From: Bacillota bacterium
Lineage (GTDB): Bacteria; Bacillota; Sulfobacillia; Sulfobacillales; JAIMBI01
Direction: 5' to 3'
Assembly: GCA_021846505.1 (NCBI GenBank)
Contig: JAJZWV010000014.1
Coordinates: forward strand, 1-58,343
Length of the DNA: 58,343 bases
The notes below the pieces were generated by a model. That model saw only the letters and a program-made list of their open reading frames with translations. It had not been told where the DNA came from and searched no databases. This document shows positions 14,088 through 46,139 of this stretch, piece after piece. Every line of letters starts with the position of its first letter. Within the stretch, counting starts at the first letter, position 1. Made by a program: the position numbers and the translations under genes.

Positions 14088-17000
14088 CTAGGGTGTCATA
14101 GGAGTCGTTGGGGTCCCCTTGACCACCGCACTCGGGCTAGAGTACACCGCATCCACGTTGAACGAATACGTATCGTGCTCCGTCAGGCCCCCCGTGACGG
14201 TCACCGCCGAGATGCTCGATGGCAGGAAGCCACTGGCATTCGCCGACACGCTGAGATCACCTGTGGGCACCGCGAAGGGCGTACCGGAGGGACTCACCGG
14301 AATCGCCCACACCTGATAGCCCACCAGATTCGCGGTGTAGCTGGAGGACGGGTCCGTCCAGGTGAGGTTCACCGCATCCGTGGGATCGGTCCCGGATTGG
14401 GCGGCCGACAGGTTCGCCACGGCGTAGCCGGACGTCGCCGATGGACCCGTGGTGTACGTGGTGGCCGAACTACTCACCAGCCACACGTTGGCGGAGGAGG
14501 ACCCCGCCGGGATGTTCACGACGAGCCCGGTGGACGTTGCCCCGCCAGATGTCGTCGCCCAGCCTTCGCCGGCTGGCACGAGGGGCAATCCAACTGCCAG
14601 CGGGGCCGTCCCGCTGACATCAATGGGGTTGCCTCCCGCGTCGACATTGACAACCTGCAACTCTATGGGCGCGTTCGCCGACAGATTCACCACGTTCGCG
14701 GGGGAGCTCACCTCCGTGCCGTTGTACTCCAGAATTTGACCCGTGGCAGATCCAGGCACCACCGTGTAGGTGTACTTCTGCTTGGGCCCATTCACACCAT
14801 CGGACACGTCCTGCACGGTGATAGTTGCCGTCCCGGTCAACCCGGCAACCAAGCCGGTTCCGTTGGGGCCCGGGCCGCCAAGGTTTGCGACCCCGTTGGG
14901 CCCCAGCTCCAGCTGCGCGCTTGTTTGGCCCGCGCCACCAACACCCACCACATTGGGGTTGTTGGACGTCACCTCAATGTAGTCGCCCTGGTTGGGCCCA
15001 GCAGGGGGAGGGGGAGTCGGCGGCGAGGTTGGCCCGTAAACCGCCTCGTCCGCCACGTTCATTCCGGTGATGGTGGCGGTCAGCCCAGACCCAGCCGCAA
15101 GGGTGCCACCGGACAAGGTCGTCTGGAGGCTCGTCACGTAGTTGCCGATAGACCGCACCATGATCTCCGGCGACATTGACAAATCCGGGTTGTAGTTGCC
15201 TGAACCCAGCATCCCAGCTGCGGTAATGTCCGCGTTGTTGCCGTTAACATCACTGGACAGCACGGTCACATTGATGGTCGCCACGCCTGAGCTATTGGTG
15301 AACGCCCGGTAGGTGTCACCAGAGGCACTGGCGTTGTTCGGCAGGGCCAACACGCCGCCCGTGCTGAGGGTGAAGTAGATCGGCTGGTTCGCCATCGCGA
15401 CCGGGTTGCCGTTGATGTCCGTCAGCTGAGCCGACTCGCTGATGGTCTCACCCGCCGTAACGCTGGACAGCGGCAGCGTGCTGTCGTTGATCGTGAACTC
15501 CGCATAGCCAGGCGCCCCGACCTTGTAGGTGTAGGTGGCGGCAGCGGACGCGATGCTGCTGTTGGTGTCCGTCACCGTGAGCGTAGCCGGGCTGCTCTGA
15601 TACGCGGTATTCTCCACGGTGAACGTCCCCACACCGTTGTTGATCGGGATGTCCACCAAGTGGCTGTGCGTGGTCTGGGCCGTAGGAACCGCACCCATCG
15701 ACAGCTCGAGGTTGCCCGAGTTGGCGGCCACACTGAGCTTGCTGTTGATGCCCGAGCCGCTGCCCGTGGAAATCAGGTTGCCGTTGGCGTCTTCCACCAT
15801 CACGGTATACGTCGTATACGTGAGTCCGCCCGCCACCCCCATGCTCGATGTGATGGCCAGGTGGGTCGGCACTCCTGCCTCATACAGGCTGATGGACACC
15901 GGCGCCGCTGCCGTGAGCGGGTCACCCGAAACGGGCGTGGCCGATACCGTCACGGTGCCCGACGCATTTTGCGGTGTGTACACGTACACGCTGGCCGAAC
16001 CGTTGCTCGCGTTGTCCAGCGGGACCACTTCCGACGTCTGGGTGCTACTGGCACTGAACGAGCCCGAGCCAGCGATCGTCAGGTCAGCATAGTACGTGTT
16101 GCTCACAGGCGTGTATGGGTTCCCCGCCTGGTCCGCCACGCTCACCGTCACCATGGCGGTGTCCTTGGCATTGTTGGACATTCCGGACACGTTGCTGCTG
16201 AGCATCAAGCTAGCCGCGACCGCCGTCTGGGCCGTCACCATCGCCGTGGCGTTGCTGTAGTTGATGTTGGCCACTTGGCCCTGACCCGAGACACCGCCGG
16301 CGCCGCTGACCGCGCTGGTCAGGTTGTCAGCGACGATGGACACTACACTGCCCGCATCCGCAGTCGGCACCGCGAACGACGTGGTGGCCACGCCGCTGGT
16401 AACGGCATACGTGTCACCGCTGTTGATGCCACCGGTGCTGATGCGCATGTTCGCGTTGTTGTCGTTCAGCGTCAGGGTCCCGCTGAAGTTGGCCACGCGG
16501 TCCCCGTGGCTATCTTCCACCGTGTAGGTCACCAGGCCGGTGGCCGACGTGTCCGCCACCACCGTCTGGCTGGCCGGGCTCACCACCACTTGGCTCGCCG
16601 TGCCGTAGGCCACCTGCGTGCCCACATTGCTCTGCAAGGCCCCGTGCTGGTTGTTCGCCGCCTCCGGGCTCTTGGCAAACGCCACGAACTTGTACGTGCC
16701 CGACATCCCGGCCGTGAACGTGAACGTCTTGCTGCTTTGGTAGGCCCCACTCTGGTGCCAGGTGCCGCTCGGGTCTTGGTACCAGAACTGATACAGCGGG
16801 CTGAAAATGCCGCTCGACGTGGCCGTCAGCGTGACCGAGGCCCCTTTCGCGACTTCGTTGCCGTTGGCGTTGGACGCCACCGAGACGGTGGAGCCGTTAA
16901 ACACGCCATCGGGCAGCGTGGTCTGGGCCATGTTCCAATCGCCCGCGGCCACCTGCGCCTGGTCCATCACGTCGACGACGACCAGGTAGTCGCCCTGCGA

Positions 17001-17297
17001 CGGGGTGGCCAGCGTGAAGGTGTTGCTCGTGGAGTAGTTTTGCATGTCACTCCACTGGCCGTTCGGGCTCTGCACCCAAAACTGATACTCGGCCGTGCCA
17101 TTGGGGTCACTGGCACTGGCCGTAAACGTGGCGGAGCCATTGGTGGGCCGAATCGGCCCGGTCAGGTGGACGCTGCCGGGGGTCACGGTCGGCGCGCTGT
17201 GCGCCAAGACCGCCGTCGCCGGCAAAATCGACATCCACGCCAAGGATGAGGCCATCGTCAGGCCGGTAATCACCTTGCTCCGTTTCGCGGTTTGCAC
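14088..17297 (-). CDS. P4: secreted Ig-like mosaic surface protein (1069 aa)
   Basis: A paralogue of P1-P3. The GTG at 17297 (VQTAKRSKVITGL) follows GAGGAGG at 17308-17315, matching P2; an ATG at 17390 has no such support. After the signal peptide and two Y_Y_Y-like modules (about 38-228), the middle block up to VVPG (about 847) is the alpha type (SISLYEAGVPTHLAI, SSMGVAGGLTYTTYTVMVED) like P1, with a proline-rich linker (PTSPPTPPPPAGP). The C-terminal block is the beta type (IELQVVNVDAGGNPID, SSSANVWLVSS) and ends in an FN3-like domain (YSFNVDAVYSSPSAVVKGTP) like P2. P4 is therefore P1-like before VVPG and P2-like after it. No anchor motif is seen. It is probably exported and surface-located. 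Confidence 0.87.
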   Translation of the reverse strand: MQTAKRSKVITGLTMASSLAWMSILPATAVLAHSAPTVTPGSVHLTGPIRPTNGSATFTASASDPNGTAEYQFWVQSPNGQWSDMQNYSTSNTFTLATPSQGDYLVVVDVMDQAQVAAGDWNMAQTTLPDGVFNGSTVSVASNANGNEVAKGASVTLTATSSGIFSPLYQFWYQDPSGTWHQSGAYQSSKTFTFTAGMSGTYKFVAFAKSPEAANNQHGALQSNVGTQVAYGTASQVVVSPASQTVVADTSATGLVTYTVEDSHGDRVANFSGTLTLNDNNANMRISTGGINSGDTYAVTSGVATTSFAVPTADAGSVVSIVADNLTSAVSGAGGVSGQGQVANINYSNATAMVTAQTAVAASLMLSSNVSGMSNNAKDTAMVTVSVADQAGNPYTPVSNTYYADLTIAGSGSFSASSTQTSEVVPLDNASNGSASVYVYTPQNASGTVTVSATPVSGDPLTAAAPVSISLYEAGVPTHLAITSSMGVAGGLTYTTYTVMVEDANGNLISTGSGSGINSKLSVAANSGNLELSMGAVPTAQTTHSHLVDIPINNGVGTFTVENTAYQSSPATLTVTDTNSSIASAAATYTYKVGAPGYAEFTINDSTLPLSSVTAGETISESAQLTDINGNPVAMANQPIYFTLSTGGVLALPNNASASGDTYRAFTNSSGVATINVTVLSSDVNGNNADITAAGMLGSGNYNPDLSMSPEIMVRSIGNYVTSLQTTLSGGTLAAGSGLTATITGMNVADEAVYGPTSPPTPPPPAGPNQGDYIEVTSNNPNVVGVGGAGQTSAQLELGPNGVANLGGPGPNGTGLVAGLTGTATITVQDVSDGVNGPKQKYTYTVVPGSATGQILEYNGTEVSSPANVVNLSANAPIELQVVNVDAGGNPIDVSGTAPLAVGLPLVPAGEGWATTSGGATSTGLVVNIPAGSSSANVWLVSSSATTYTTGPSATSGYAVANLSAAQSGTDPTDAVNLTWTDPSSSYTANLVGYQVWAIPVSPSGTPFAVPTGDLSVSANASGFLPSSISAVTVTGGLTEHDTYSFNVDAVYSSPSAVVKGTPTTPMTP

Positions 17298-17624
17298 TAT
17301 GAAGATGCCCTCCTCATGGAGACCTTTTCGGTCCCGCAACCAACCTGCCATGAAACCAGACCTGTTGGACTGTTCAACACGGCCAGCCAAGTCATTGGCC
17401 TAAAAGTCCGCCAACGTCTGTGGCTCGTGCCACCCAGCAGAATCCCGGTCTCCGCTTCATGCCGTCTGAACGCCGAGCCAAGCATCTATCCGCTGGTGAC
17501 AAGTCGCCTGTGTAAGGCCGGCTCTCATCCACTGTTCGGCAAACCTGCGGTGAACCCCAAGGCTTTCCGCTGGATCTGCTGAAACACGGCAGACGCGGAG
17601 GCAGGTTTACTGCTTCCGACTGGG

Positions 17625-35464: not shown

Positions 35465-35635
35465 ACGGTCCACCCCGCCGCCCGATTTGGCGCCGGCACC
35501 AATCCCCATTATCTGCCTCGCTGGGACATTCGCAGCGCGCTCCCGCAAAAAGAGGATTTTGGCGCCGGAGCCCGTATTGCCCCAGCTGAACAAGTCGCTG
35601 GCCGCGGCCCCACTCGGTGGCGCGGCGGCCGGCCC

Positions 35636-35666
35636 TTGGCACAGCTGCCACGTCAACCCATACAAC
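35636..35666 (+). promoter_or_regulatory. Possible promoter of the GH18 gene
   Basis: TTGGCA (35636-35641) and TACAAC (35661-35666) with a 19-base spacer, longer than usual. The leader would be about 80 bases. No gene is seen in the 322-base divergent gap 35430-35751. Confidence 0.35.
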
Positions 35667-35751
35667 TCTGTGTCTCCGCCGCGGGCGCGGCTGGACGCAA
35701 TTCGCCGATAAGGCCGCGCCTCACCCAAGTTTGAACGGAGGATCTCAATCT

Positions 35752-38169
35752 ATGGACAAGCCAACAGGGAGCCCCACGAGGACCACGAGCTCCACCCCGG
35801 CAGTGGGCCGGCGGCGGCGCGTCGGTGGCGCCCTGGGCCTCGCCTCATCGCTGCTGTGGGTGCTGCTGCTGCCGACGTCCGCCTGGGCGGCCACGCCTGC
35901 GGTCCAGGTGGAGGCAGGATCGGTCACCATGACCGCCAGCAGCCACACCGCCCCCGTGGGCGGCCACGTGACTTTTTCGGCCAAAGCCAGCGACCCCGGC
36001 GGCCCCGGCGGCCCCCTCGAGTACCAGTGGTGGGTCGAAGAGCCCACGGGCCACTGGGTCAACGCCCAAAATTACTCCACCAGCACCACGTTTGATTTGT
36101 CCACGCCCAGCGCCGGCGACTACGTGGTGGTGGTGGATGTGATGAATCAGTCGGCCGTGGCGAAGGGGGACTGGTCGGCGGCACAGTCTACCCTGCCGCT
36201 GGGCGTCTTTGTCCAAAGTTCCGTGTCCGCCGCCGCCAGCGGGGAAACCGCCGGCCAGCCGGTGACGCTTTCGGCGGTGGCGCAGAACATCTATGACCCG
36301 CAGTATCAATTCTGGGTGGAGTCTCCGTCGGGGCACTGGAGCCAGAGCGGCCCCTACGGCGCCAAAACCCAGTACACCTTCACGCCGCCCTCGCCCGGCA
36401 CCTATCGCTATGTGGCGTTTGCCAAAAGCCCGGTGGCCGCCAACGACGCCGCCGGCGCGCTCATGAGCGCGGTAGGCTCTGCGGCGGTGGTGGGGGCGGC
36501 GGCCTCGGTGTCGGTGGCAGCCGCCACCAGCCGCTTTGCCGCCAACGGCAGCGGCGGCGACCAGCTGACGCTCACCGTGGCCAACGCCTCGGGCCAAACC
36601 GTGACGCAGTTTGATGGCCAGGTGGAGCTGTCGGCCGGCAGCGGCCTTCTGTTCAACAACGGCACGTCGTCGTCGGCCGTCGTTACGATCAGCGGCGGCA
36701 GCGGCACGCTGGCGCTGGCGGTGCCGTCGGGCGGCGCCGGCACCTACACCGTCACGGCGGAAAACCTGACGGCCTCCACGGGCCCCGGCGTGGCGCAGCA
36801 GGTGACCTACGGCCAAGCCACGGTGACCGCGACGTTCCCCATGATTTCGGTGGGCTGGGGGTACTTCTATCCACAAAACTTCCCCGGCGGCTACTATGAC
36901 CTGACACATCACTTCGCGGACCTGACCGCCATTGCGCCCGACTGGTACTACCTGAACATCAACTCGTCGGGGTCGGTGGGCACCCCGGTGCTGACCGCCT
37001 ACCCCCAGGCCAGCATGATTGCCCAGGTGAGCGCGGCCGCGGCGTCCCATAACGTCATGATGTGGCCGTCGGTCGGCTGGGCGGCGCCGGGCAACGTAAA
37101 CGCGCTCCGCAGCTCCGCCAATGTGTCGGCCATCGTGAGTGCGATGACCAACCTGGCGGTCACCGAGCATTATCAGGGGATGACCATCGACTTTGAGGGG
37201 ATGGGCAATCCCTCTGCCACCACCGCCAGCGACCCCACCCCGGGCTACCAGGTGTTCAACCACTTTGTGGCGGCGCTGGCCGCGTCCCTGCACCAGGCCG
37301 GCAAAACCTTGATGGTGGCGGTGTACCCCAGCGCCTATCCCTACACCATCTACGACTATCCGGCGCTGGCCGCCTCCGCCAACTATCTGAACGTGATGGG
37401 CTACCCGGAGCACAACACCGGCTACCCGTCCGCAAGTGATCCCTATCCCGGGCCCACGGCGGGGTTCCCGTGGCTGCAGAGCCTCCTGTCGGGGGACTTG
37501 GCGACGGGCGTCAATCCCCACCAGCTAATTTTGGGCCTCGCGCCGTATGGCCACGGCTGGACCTATACCTCGAACGGGTACATCTGCGGCCAAGCCGGCT
37601 ATCCACACTGCCAGGGCTACATCTCCAACTTTGAAGCCCAGGCGCTCATTCGGACGAACAACATCACGCCCACGTGGGACCCGTGGCAGAAGGAGGAAGT
37701 GTTTACGGCGGGGCCTGCGGCCGTGGCCCCGGCCGCAGGTCTGTCCAAGGCCACGCCTGGGCCGTCCAACGCCGTCCGCAGCTTGCAGAGCCTCCTCGAC
37801 TACATCCTGATTCGCTACGCCGCCGCCAATGGGCAGAGCGAGCCCCCCCTCATGATCACCGACGGCTACTACGGGCCGGTGACCACCTCGGCGGTAGCCC
37901 AGTTCCAGCAGGACTTCAACGTGTCCACGTCCTCTCTTGGCACGTACGACGCTGCCACCGCCGCGGCCCTGTCGGCGTTGATCACGCAGTGGCACATTGG
38001 CGCCACGGTGTACTGGACCGACACTGGCCGCTCCACCAAGGATCGCGTGGCCCTCTCCGCGGCCGACAAGCTGGGCGGAGTGGCCATGTGGCGGCTGGGA
38101 TTTGAAACGAACAACTATTGGCTCGGCTTCGAGTCGGTGGCGTCGGCGATCAAGCAGCCAGGCGGATAG
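35752..38169 (+). CDS. Secreted GH18 wall hydrolase-like protein with P-type N-terminal modules
   Basis: An 805-residue protein. Signal peptide 1-46 (LLWVLLLPTSAWA). Two modules (about 50-235) are homologous to the N-terminal modules of P1-P4 (EYQWWVEEPTGHW, QYQFWVESPSGHW, YVAFAKSPVAAND), and a third Ig-like module runs to about 360. From about 363 comes a GH18 TIM barrel of the SleL/YaaH kind: MTIDFEGM with D480 and probable catalytic acid E482, LNVMGYPEHNTG, LILGLAPYGHGW, and last strand GGVAMWRLGFE near 780. A peptidoglycan-binding domain-like segment (about 670-743; SLQSLLDYIL, DGYYGPVTTSAVAQFQQD) is inserted before that last strand. ATG 35752 follows GGAGG ten bases upstream. It probably cleaves GlcNAc-containing wall polymer outside the cell. 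Confidence 0.87.
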   Translation: MDKPTGSPTRTTSSTPAVGRRRRVGGALGLASSLLWVLLLPTSAWAATPAVQVEAGSVTMTASSHTAPVGGHVTFSAKASDPGGPGGPLEYQWWVEEPTGHWVNAQNYSTSTTFDLSTPSAGDYVVVVDVMNQSAVAKGDWSAAQSTLPLGVFVQSSVSAAASGETAGQPVTLSAVAQNIYDPQYQFWVESPSGHWSQSGPYGAKTQYTFTPPSPGTYRYVAFAKSPVAANDAAGALMSAVGSAAVVGAAASVSVAAATSRFAANGSGGDQLTLTVANASGQTVTQFDGQVELSAGSGLLFNNGTSSSAVVTISGGSGTLALAVPSGGAGTYTVTAENLTASTGPGVAQQVTYGQATVTATFPMISVGWGYFYPQNFPGGYYDLTHHFADLTAIAPDWYYLNINSSGSVGTPVLTAYPQASMIAQVSAAAASHNVMMWPSVGWAAPGNVNALRSSANVSAIVSAMTNLAVTEHYQGMTIDFEGMGNPSATTASDPTPGYQVFNHFVAALAASLHQAGKTLMVAVYPSAYPYTIYDYPALAASANYLNVMGYPEHNTGYPSASDPYPGPTAGFPWLQSLLSGDLATGVNPHQLILGLAPYGHGWTYTSNGYICGQAGYPHCQGYISNFEAQALIRTNNITPTWDPWQKEEVFTAGPAAVAPAAGLSKATPGPSNAVRSLQSLLDYILIRYAAANGQSEPPLMITDGYYGPVTTSAVAQFQQDFNVSTSSLGTYDAATAAALSALITQWHIGATVYWTDTGRSTKDRVALSAADKLGGVAMWRLGFETNNYWLGFESVASAIKQPGG

Positions 38170-43219: not shown

Positions 43220-43744
43220 ATGTCACGCCGAGACGACATATTGGAGTTGCTGCAGCAAGAGCACCAGCCGGTGCCCGGCTACGTGCTGGCGGAGAGATTC
43301 GCCGTATCGCGCCAAGTGGTGGTGCACGATATCGCCCTGCTGCGCGCGAGCGGCGCCGCCGTCGAAGCGACGCCGCGGGGGTACATTCTCCTCCGGCCGC
43401 CGCAAGGCCTCTACACAACGGTCTACGCCGTGCGGCACCGGCCAGCAGACACCGCCGCCGAGCTGTACGGGTTGGTCGACGCTGGCGTATCGGTCGTGGA
43501 TGTTTTGGTGGAGCACCCCATCTACGGCGAGATGCGCGGCGCGCTGAACCTGCACTCGCGCGCGGATGTCCAGGATTTTCTAGACCGCATGACCCTGCAG
43601 CACGGCCAGCTGCTGAGCCTGCTCACGGACGGAGTGCACTGGCACACCGTCCGCGCGCGCGACGAAGCTACGCTGGAACGCGGCCGCGCGGCTCTTCGGG
43701 CACTGGGGTTCCTCGCGGACGGATCGCCCAGTACCAGTAAGTGA
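43220..43744 (+). CDS. niaR: NiaR-type transcriptional repressor of NAD biosynthesis
   Basis: A 174-residue protein, the usual length of NiaR/YrxA. Residues 1-60 are an HTH_11 winged helix (RRDDILELLQQEHQPVPGYVLAERFAVSRQVVVHDI); residues 70-170 are the 3H domain with its histidines in AVRHRPADTA, LVEHPIYGEM, NLHSRADVQDF and LTDGVHWHTVRA. In Firmicutes and Thermotogae NiaR represses de novo NAD synthesis and niacin uptake genes when nicotinic acid is present. ATG 43220 follows AAGGGG. The gene is tail to tail with an NCS1 permease, overlapping by 77 bases. Confidence 0.88.
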   Translation: MSRRDDILELLQQEHQPVPGYVLAERFAVSRQVVVHDIALLRASGAAVEATPRGYILLRPPQGLYTTVYAVRHRPADTAAELYGLVDAGVSVVDVLVEHPIYGEMRGALNLHSRADVQDFLDRMTLQHGQLLSLLTDGVHWHTVRARDEATLERGRAALRALGFLADGSPSTSK

Positions 43745-44975
43745 TGCCGGCCACCACAAACCCCATGTAGTAGGCCACGTCGGCACCGCCCCAGGCCCGC
43801 GCCACCCAGCCGGTCCAAAGCGTCTGGGACATGAAAGGCACCGACGCGGCCACCCCGGTGAGGAACGCCCAGAGTCCCCACCCCACCGCCCGATTGGCCT
43901 CGTGCGGCTTCACGGCGTCCCAAAACAAGATGGCCAGCCACGGCGCCACCCAGTACGACAGCAGCAGCAAGAAGTTTTCGTACTGGGCGGCAAATCCCCC
44001 TTGAATACCCAGGAGCGTCAGCGCCGATCCTAAAATCCCTGTCAGCATCGCCGCCTGAACTCGGTCCCGCCCGAGGCCCAGGGTGAGCGTGCTGGTGGCG
44101 CCGGTGTACACGTTCAGCACGTTGGCCGTCACGGTGCCGCCCACCACCGCCAGGTACGCGATGGGCGCCAGCCGGCCGGCGCCCGCCGCCAAGAGGCCCA
44201 TGCTGGACGCCACGTGGAACCGCACGGCCATCAGGACGCCCAGCACCATCACGCCGGCGGTGGACACCAGCGAGCCGGCCAGCGCCCACCAAAACACCGT
44301 GAGGGCGGGGGTGCTGGCCGGCAGGTAGCGGGAGTAGTCTGCCGCGTAAGGCCCCCAGCTGAAAAGGTACGACGCGGCAATCGCCACTGTGAGAATCGCC
44401 ATGGGCCAGTTGGCGGCGCCGGCGGCGGCAGGCGTGGCGGCACCCGCGGTGTGCACGGCCAAGTACGCAAACAGCAGCAGCAGCACCACGCTGGCTACGC
44501 GCTCCACGCGGTGAATCATGTCGTGGCCGAAAATGGCCAGCCCCACTTGGATCACCACCATGACACCCAGGGCGGGGGCCACGGGCCAGCCCAGCAAGCT
44601 TTGCACCGCCTCCGTCCCCAGCACCGTGTTGACGGCAAACCACCCCGCACAAGACACCCAGTTCAATAGCGCCGGCAGCTTCACCCCCTGCCGGCCAAAA
44701 GCCCGCATCGACTGCGGCAGCGAGCCCAAGCCCGTCGCCGGCCCCAGCGCGGCCGCGCCCGCCACCAGCACCGAGCCAATCACGGCGCCCACCACCACGG
44801 CCGCCAGCGCCAGCCGCCAGTCTGGCTCCAGCGCCACGGCCAGCACGCCAATCACCCAGGCGGGAAATCCCAAGTTGGCGGCAAACCACAGCGTAAACAG
44901 CTGGACCGGGCGCCCATGCCGCGCCTCCGGCGGCACGGGCTCCACCCCTCGCCACTCCAACATCTGTGCGGCCAA
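43668..44975 (-). CDS. NCS1-family permease (nucleobase/cofactor-precursor type)
   Basis: A 435-residue protein with twelve membrane segments and the NCS1 pattern: start HGRPVQLFTLWFAANLGFPAW, NWVSCAGWFAVNT, FSWGPYAADYSRYLP, ANVLNVYTGATSTLTLG, and YWVAPWLAILFWD. Known members import cytosine, uracil, allantoin, thiamine precursors or nicotinate-like compounds with H+ or Na+. The TTG at 44975 is chosen because GGGGGAG (44981-44987) precedes it; ATG 45011 has no ribosome binding site. A palindrome at 45019-45040 and the neighbouring niaR suggest a pyridine substrate (inference). Confidence 0.85.
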   Translation of the reverse strand: MAAQMLEWRGVEPVPPEARHGRPVQLFTLWFAANLGFPAWVIGVLAVALEPDWRLALAAVVVGAVIGSVLVAGAAALGPATGLGSLPQSMRAFGRQGVKLPALLNWVSCAGWFAVNTVLGTEAVQSLLGWPVAPALGVMVVIQVGLAIFGHDMIHRVERVASVVLLLLFAYLAVHTAGAATPAAAGAANWPMAILTVAIAASYLFSWGPYAADYSRYLPASTPALTVFWWALAGSLVSTAGVMVLGVLMAVRFHVASSMGLLAAGAGRLAPIAYLAVVGGTVTANVLNVYTGATSTLTLGLGRDRVQAAMLTGILGSALTLLGIQGGFAAQYENFLLLLSYWVAPWLAILFWDAVKPHEANRAVGWGLWAFLTGVAASVPFMSQTLWTGWVARAWGGADVAYYMGFVVAGITYWYWAIRPRGTPVPEEPRGRVPA

Positions 44976-45018
44976 TCTCTCTCCCCCAATGCCGGACATG
45001 TTCTGCCACATCAGTCTC

Positions 45019-45040
45019 TGTCAACACACATGTCTTGTCA
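45019..45040. promoter_or_regulatory. 22-bp imperfect palindrome, candidate NiaR operator
   Basis: Arms TGTCAACACA and TGTCTTGTCA (8 of 10 positions symmetric) around CA, 43 bases before the permease start. Read toward the permease, the site carries TTGACA at 45019-45024, and a second TTGACA at 45036-45041 straddles its far edge. The position fits a repressor covering a promoter. Assignment to NiaR is inferred from the neighbouring gene. Confidence 0.5.
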
Positions 45041-46139
45041 ATGACGCAAGCCGTCTTCCCTCCAGCAAATTTTCGGGCGCGGCCGCAGCGAGACCACTTG
45101 GCTGCACTCGGATCCCGGAAGCTTGTCGGCGGGGGAACACTCCGCCACGGGCCGCGGGTGTGGCCTCGCGCCTCGGTGCCGAGTCTCCGGACTAGACCAG
45201 CGACCCGAGGCCGATGGCCAGGACTTCGTCACGCAGGTCGCAGCCGCGGTTGATTCGGAATGTCGGCCCGGCGCCCCAAGAGCGCCTCCGGGCCGACAGC
45301 TAGCCCTCCTAGATCCAACAGCGTCCGGACGGGCACTGTCGGGATAAGTCGAACAGCACGTCAGTGTCACTCAACGAATGGAAATCGTCCCGCAGCACCG
45401 AGCCAAACAGCGACAGCTCCCGGATTCCTCAGCGGCGGCACCGCCTATTCAGCCGCCCCCCATCGATTGCGGCGCGCCGTGGCCCGGCCGCATTTTGCGG
45501 CTTGGCCACGGCCATCTTCCCCACGCACGCTTTCCTTGGTCCACAAGACGCCCAGGTGGCAGCAGCTCAAGAACCGACAGCGGTGCTGGGCTAGCGCACG
45601 AGCAGCTCTCGGGGGATCGCCGCGCCGCTCGGGTGGACGGTGCGCGTCCGAAGTGGGCAGCCGGAGGCATGTCCGGGGCGCGGCGGCACGCATCGGCCCC
45701 GCCATGGGAGGTGATGGCTGCGGGTCGTGGGTACATGGGGTGGCCGATCCGCGCGTCCCGGTGGCGTGGGCGCCCGTGCGCTAGCGGGGCCTGAGGTGCC
45801 ACCCCGTGCGCCGGCACGTCCGGCGCCAGGCGGGGACCGCTGTCGTGGCGCGGCCACCGTGCTGGGCGTGGGGGTCGCCGTCTGCGGCGCGTGGTGGGCC
45901 CCAAGTGCCGCGAGATGACGACATCGGATAGGCATGCCGGGGACCTGGTGCTGTCCATCAAGGGCTCTCTGGCAATAATCGGCAGGTCGGGCTGCCCGCC
46001 CTTTAAGGTCCCCTCCCTGGGCGCGAGCGGCCTGGCGTCTCTGGCCTGCTTGCTTGTGATACCATCGCCAAGCGGCTTTGGCACGCCCGCCGCCCGAGCG
46101 GCCCGGCTGCCCATGAAAGACGAGAAAGGACGGCCACGC
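45041..46139. other. 1.1-kb region without a recognisable gene
   Basis: Open frames exist on both strands but are Arg/Pro/Gly/Ser-rich and lack ribosome binding sites. A strong inverted repeat is at 45261-45298. TGTGATACC near 46055 could be an extended -10 for the helicase gene. It may hold a decayed gene or an unrecognised RNA. Confidence 0.45.
45261..45298. repeat. Strong inverted repeat
   Basis: TGTCGGCCCGG and CCGGGCCGACA are perfectly complementary 11-base arms 16 bases apart, and the loop contains a further GCGC pairing. No adjacent gene ends here, so a lone terminator or a structured RNA are both possible. Confidence 0.55.

Follow-up and report, generated by a model that had tools for sequence, protein, structure and literature searches.

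A divergent NCS1-type permease encoded next to niaR as a probable niacin importer of acidophilic Bacillota

The permease gene adjoining niaR in the Bacillota bacterium studied here very probably encodes a hitherto undescribed kind of nicotinate or nicotinamide importer, which belongs to the NCS1 family, otherwise known for the transport of nucleobases. The explanation as a whole, that the permease would be repressed by NiaR and would import nicotinate and/or nicotinamide for the salvage of NAD, is considered highly likely. It is built on the identities of the genes, on an operator which is conserved among relatives and matches the operators of their nad genes, and on a genome in which the genes of de novo synthesis are missing and those of salvage are present. 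The host group consists of acid-loving spore-forming bacteria, in which the genes of niacin synthesis have mostly been lost. The analysed stretch of DNA (58,343 nucleotides, referred to as the window) is one contig (C67) of the host genome, which comprises 3.58 Mb in 119 contigs.

The regulator had been described from its sequence as NiaR with a winged helix and a 3H domain, and this identification was borne out. The protein matched PF08279 (HTH_11, 58 bits) and PF02829 (3H, 98.7 bits), both above the cut-off, and the solved NiaR structures 9ebr, 1j5y and 7cv0 matched it with E-values of 1e-34 to 1e-36. Its metal/niacin ligands H73, E81, H140 and H142 were invariant across ten aligned relatives and correspond to the three histidine residues and the glutamate residue which are the ligands in BhNiaR and TmNiaR (PMC7713382).

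The neighbouring gene is indeed located tail to tail with niaR on the minus strand, and the two genes share 77 bp at their 3' ends. Its product matched PF02133 (82.9 bits, cut-off 23.5; E 2.7e-23) and no other Pfam family, so it is neither a PnuC protein (PF04973) nor NiaP, NiaX or NiaY (MFS or ECF S-component). The nearest NCBIfam models were those of the hydroxymethylpyrimidine transporter CytX (TIGR02358, 96.6 bits, cut-off 309.85), of the curated NCS1 subfamily (TIGR00800, 90 bits, cut-off 353.1) and of the cytosine permease CodB (NF008241, 26.5 bits, cut-off 326), all of which remained far below their cut-offs. Judged by these scores, the permease is a divergent NCS1 member outside the curated TIGR00800 subfamily. 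The longest reading frame covers positions 43668-45011, and the likely start is the TTG codon at 44975; GTG or TTG occurs at the equivalent position in three other genus members, the first 14 residues of the long reading frame were modelled by AlphaFold with low confidence, and a probable ribosome-binding site (GGGGGAGA) is located just upstream of this TTG.

In the PDB, the AlphaFold model of the permease (pLDDT 85.7) showed its best matches to CodB and Mhp1, with TM-scores from 0.69 up to 0.79 and 15-18% identical amino acids. The conserved Trp124 is the equivalent of CodB Trp108. Residue Gln105 of CodB, which is required for cytosine transport (PMC9379551), aligns with Cys121 of the permease and with Thr or Ala in relatives. 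The protein is therefore an NCS1 carrier with the LeuT-type NCS1 fold but not a cytosine permease.

Table 1. Positions of the features discussed (window coordinates, except for the last line)
Feature	Position	Strand	Basis
niaR, niacin-responsive repressor (HTH_11 and 3H)	43220..43744	+	domains, structure matches, conserved ligands
NCS1-family permease, probable niacin importer	43668..44975	-	PF02133, AlphaFold model, start conserved in genus
Probable ribosome-binding site of the permease gene, GGGGGAGA	44980..44987	-	sequence; just upstream of TTG 44975
NiaR box 2 (type I), predicted; core TGTCAACACA at 45019-45028	45013..45034		nad-trained matrix, 6.8 bits
NiaR box 1 (type I), predicted; core TGTCTTGTCA at 45031-45040	45025..45046		nad-trained matrix, 6.5 bits; conserved in genus
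TTGACA hexamer, conserved, overlapping box 1, possible -35	45036..45041	-	genus/family alignment
Archaeal-type nicotinate phosphoribosyltransferase	L149:1545-2648	-	NF006415

The preliminary description had placed a 22-bp dyad at 45019-45040, 43 bases before the permease start, and both the coordinates and the distance (from 45019 to the TTG at 44975) proved to be exact. Its arms, TGTCAACACA and TGTCTTGTCA, occur once each in the window. They pair at 8 of 10 positions across a spacer of 2, which makes the dyad imperfect, and the exact symmetric pattern TGTCNNNACANNTGTNNNGACA had no match in the host genome. Since a dyad of equal quality was present in 41% of the dinucleotide shuffles of the 200-bp region, the bare dyad is not above chance alone and was rejected as evidence. 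The site is better read as two predicted type I NiaR boxes which are arranged in tandem 12 bp apart. Type I operators have the core TGT-N4-ACA, as does the TGTCTTGACA of B. halodurans and of PnadC-R1 in S. pneumoniae; these operator types were taken from PMC7713382 and PMC5343564. The core of box 2 is an exact TGT-N4-ACA, the core of box 1 is one base off, and TGTCTTGACA differs from box 1 by one base. The assignment of the dyad to NiaR is upheld and strengthened with regard to the conserved footprint and to the same decamer at nadC and nadB of relatives, but not with regard to a single dyad.

Upstream of the permease gene, an island with the sequence TTGACAAGACA-NN-TGT-N4-ACA-GA was conserved in four members of the genus and, in a weaker form, in one member of the family. 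When a matrix trained exclusively on the nad-operon boxes of relatives was applied, both boxes were among the best three of 58,322 positions of the window, and 0.75 such matches were expected in the shuffled window. Because of the conservation in five genomes and the match to a matrix derived from nad operons only, the operator of the window is above chance. A strong match of 11.5 bits to the same matrix at 17491-17512 is probably due to chance, as it is single and no NAD gene is found there; it is located about 100 bases before the gene of a large secreted protein (14088-17390, minus strand). Another secreted protein of the window (35617-38169, plus strand) belongs to glycosyl hydrolase family 18 and possesses a peptidoglycan-binding domain. 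The palindrome had also been described as lying over the promoter. This is plausible with respect to the conserved TTGACA inside the operator, but neither a consensus -35/-10 pair of the sigma-70-like type nor a consensus -10 was detectable at the permease promoter.

Since the host is devoid of nadA and of a true nadC, the suggested search for the operator at other NAD genes was confined to relatives, and there it was successful. The decamer TGTCTTGTCA was found upstream of nadC or nadB in eight genomes (G010, G012, G015, G016, G020, G022, G028 and G033), and close variants of it are located upstream of most other nadC genes. Relatives which have kept the nadC-nadB-nadA cluster possess TGTCTTGTCA, TGTCTTGACA, TGTCATGACA or TGTCAAGACA upstream of nadC (or nadB). 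Applied to the permease promoters, the nad-trained matrix yielded sites of 18-26 bits upstream of NCS1 in Sulfobacillus relatives with niaR elsewhere in the genome, and in G007. Because the nad boxes for the matrix had been chosen by eye as type-I-like, the literature motif TGT-N4-ACA was counted independently. It occurred upstream of 25 of the 28 NiaR-associated NCS1 genes (about 1.3 expected); the counts were 4/5 for the NCS1 promoters of genus and family (average of the shuffles 0.17), 9/9 for those with unlinked niaR (0.53) and 12/14 for those with linked niaR (0.61). The motif was also present upstream of nadC in 11 of 16 cases (1.16), and at none of the six NCS1 paralogs (0.22).

The 12-bp tandem arrangement occurs at NCS1 of other relatives as well, and at nadC of G005 and G020. 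In two FW021 bins (L197 and L212), a 32-bp palindrome, ACTGCTGTCTTGTCAATTGACAAGACAGCAGT, which contains two NiaR boxes, is located some 50-90 bases upstream of the NCS1 match; it is perfect in L197 and near-perfect in L212. No box was found upstream of NCS1 in G030 (L121) and G032 (L123), which possess the niaR-NCS1 pair and have kept nadA, and the related NCS1 genes of G020 and G025 are also without a box. In the niaR promoter regions inspected, a box of the lineage type was absent, so there is no sign of an autoregulation of niaR. The host pncA and pncB carry no NiaR boxes. The pattern TGTCWWGWCA occurs at 10 places in the host genome (13 listings, as some are palindromic), and none of the other sites was seen with a 12-bp partner. 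As none of them precedes a recognisable NAD gene, the permease may be the only NAD-related target of NiaR that is left in the genus and in the host genome.

Family f3 has a second type of operator: in its genomes with the niaR-NCS1 pair, the box reads TGTATATACA and directly precedes NCS1, not niaR. The same TGTATATACA is found at nadC of G009, G025 and G032. The NiaR proteins of L096, L099, L102, L110, L113, L118, L120-L126 and L143 were compared with that of the window (43220-43741), and the recognition helix starts with Thr in NiaR of the genomes with the TGTATATACA operator and with Ser in NiaR of those with TGTCWWGWCA. Because TGTATATACA at nadC and NCS1 coincides with Thr in NiaR, operator and regulator appear to have changed together at two target genes. 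This coincidence is confounded with phylogeny but agrees with a single regulator for the two targets. It would be a clean example of a transcription factor that has changed in step with its operators at several promoters.

With respect to the distribution of the gene pair, niaR adjoins NCS1 in 19 of the 34 niaR-bearing genomes of the order which were examined. Among the best 80 named NCS1 loci, niaR was adjacent in 28, of which 27 had a box; the linked loci include those of Alicyclobacillus ferrooxydans, A. sp. SP_1, A. suci, A. mengziensis and A. montanus. The pair recurs in Sulfobacillus relatives and in Alicyclobacillus, and both the neighbourhood and the NCS1 operator are conserved far outside the genus. 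Archaeal and chloroflexotal homologs of the permease among these 80 loci showed no adjacent niaR. The archaeal homologs (Thermoplasmatota and Nitrososphaerota; L188, L191, L193, L202, L234 and others) are possible niacin importers without NiaR. In the trees, the niaR-associated NCS1 proteins fall into two main, distant clades which are interleaved with archaeal NCS1 proteins. Hence, the association was gained or lost several times, and a single substrate shared by these distant clades is an assumption. With this reservation, we lean towards the view that a NiaR-repressed NCS1 subfamily forms a new class of niacin importers in two or more classes of Bacillota, recruited repeatedly or distributed by transfer, and that archaeal relatives from acidic habitats may function likewise.

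The presence of the linked pair coincides with the loss of nadA. Within the order, nadA was absent in 16 of the 19 genomes with the linked pair versus none of the 15 with unlinked niaR (Fisher p 4.5e-7, uncorrected for phylogeny and with some genomes incomplete), and beyond this set it was absent in 8 of 9 linked genomes, including the complete chromosome of A. mengziensis. The host genome contains neither nadA nor a true nadC (quinolinate phosphoribosyltransferase). The search for transporters in this genome covered PnuC and CbiQ/EcfT and yielded a match to neither, and the lack of CbiQ/EcfT argues against an NiaX or NiaY of the ECF type. Salvage enzymes were identified, namely the nicotinamidase PncA (NF008623, 176.6 bits, cut-off 174) and an archaeal-type nicotinate phosphoribosyltransferase, PncB (NF006415, 426 bits, cut-off 243; PDB matches 2i14 and 1ytd). 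The host pncB was noticed through weak matches to the nadC model and was missed by the Pfam NAPRTase model PF04095, with which no pncB was found in the order. Since nearly every genome of the order has similar weak matches to the nadC model, the archaeal-type PncB seems to be general there. As the de novo genes are missing and salvage by PncA and PncB is present, an organism with the predicted gene content of the host must import a pyridine precursor. Three genomes (G004, G018 and G026) possess neither niaR nor nadA and probably belong to niacin auxotrophs; such members must meet their need for NAD precursors in another way.

From the sequences we infer that NiaR binds to the site and represses the permease gene in dependence on niacin. 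If nicotinate is plentiful, two NiaR dimers would occupy the tandem boxes (45013-45046) and block the transcription of the permease gene; the predicted occupancy of both boxes overlaps the conserved TTGACA. If nicotinate is scarce, NiaR would leave the site and the permease would be formed. It would then take up nicotinate, nicotinamide or both, and nicotinamidase and nicotinate phosphoribosyltransferase would channel them into NAD.

A permease under the control of NiaR might also serve mainly for the uptake of a different precursor of NAD, for instance quinolinate or nicotinamide riboside. PnuC, which imports nicotinamide riboside, can belong to NiaR regulons and is absent in the host, and the yeast protein Nrt1 is an NCS1-type nicotinamide riboside carrier. 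However, the host is without a true quinolinate phosphoribosyltransferase and possesses PncA and PncB for simple pyridines, and this possibility is regarded as improbable. A carrier of an ordinary nucleobase or of hydroxymethylpyrimidine, with an incidental link to NiaR, is more improbable still: the NCBIfam models nearest to the permease do point in this direction, though far below cut-off, but the operator and the adjacency to niaR are kept in two bacterial classes, the NCS1 paralogs of the host are without boxes, and the glutamine residue that is crucial for cytosine is missing. It is hardly conceivable that the dyad arose by chance or serves as operator for another regulator. Equal dyads in shuffled DNA and the other TGTCWWGWCA sites of the host without NAD genes would agree with this, but not the footprint in the genus, the identity to the nadC and nadB boxes and the covariation of the site with the operator type of the lineage. 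Import of niacin by a permease under repression by NiaR is therefore preferred.

NiaR and its type I operators were already known, and new is the putative NCS1-type member of NiaR regulons. The preliminary description had called a niacin role unusual for NCS1 in NiaR regulons, and no earlier description of such a role of a bacterial NCS1 protein was found in the open-access literature. A study from 2024 stresses the scant knowledge of bacterial NCS1 carriers and does not mention nicotinate or niacin in its text (PMC11633122). Few substrates have been assigned to these carriers, to which the permease would add a vitamin on the basis of regulon evidence. The list of NiaR-controlled importers would be extended, a candidate niacin importer is named for acidophiles which occur in bioleaching and in the spoilage of juice, and niacin auxotrophy is predicted for many of these acidophiles.

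In comparison to the type I NiaR (YrxA) regulon of Firmicutes (B. subtilis, B. halodurans and S. pneumoniae), the regulator domains, the metal ligands and the core TGT-N4-ACA are the same, and relatives of the host likewise carry boxes before nadC. Known NiaR regulons have NiaP, NiaX, NiaY or PnuC as targets, whereas the predicted target in the host is an NCS1 permease; furthermore, the host boxes are paired 12 bp apart, and the host genus has lost nadA and nadC. With CodB and the hydantoin permease Mhp1, the permease has its fold in common, and Trp108 of CodB is retained as Trp124, but Gln105 is replaced by Cys121 and the permease is tied to niacin regulation. Yeast Nrt1, likened here by description only, is an NCS1 carrier for a form of vitamin B3 too, but it belongs to the eukaryotic branch of the family and transports another substrate.
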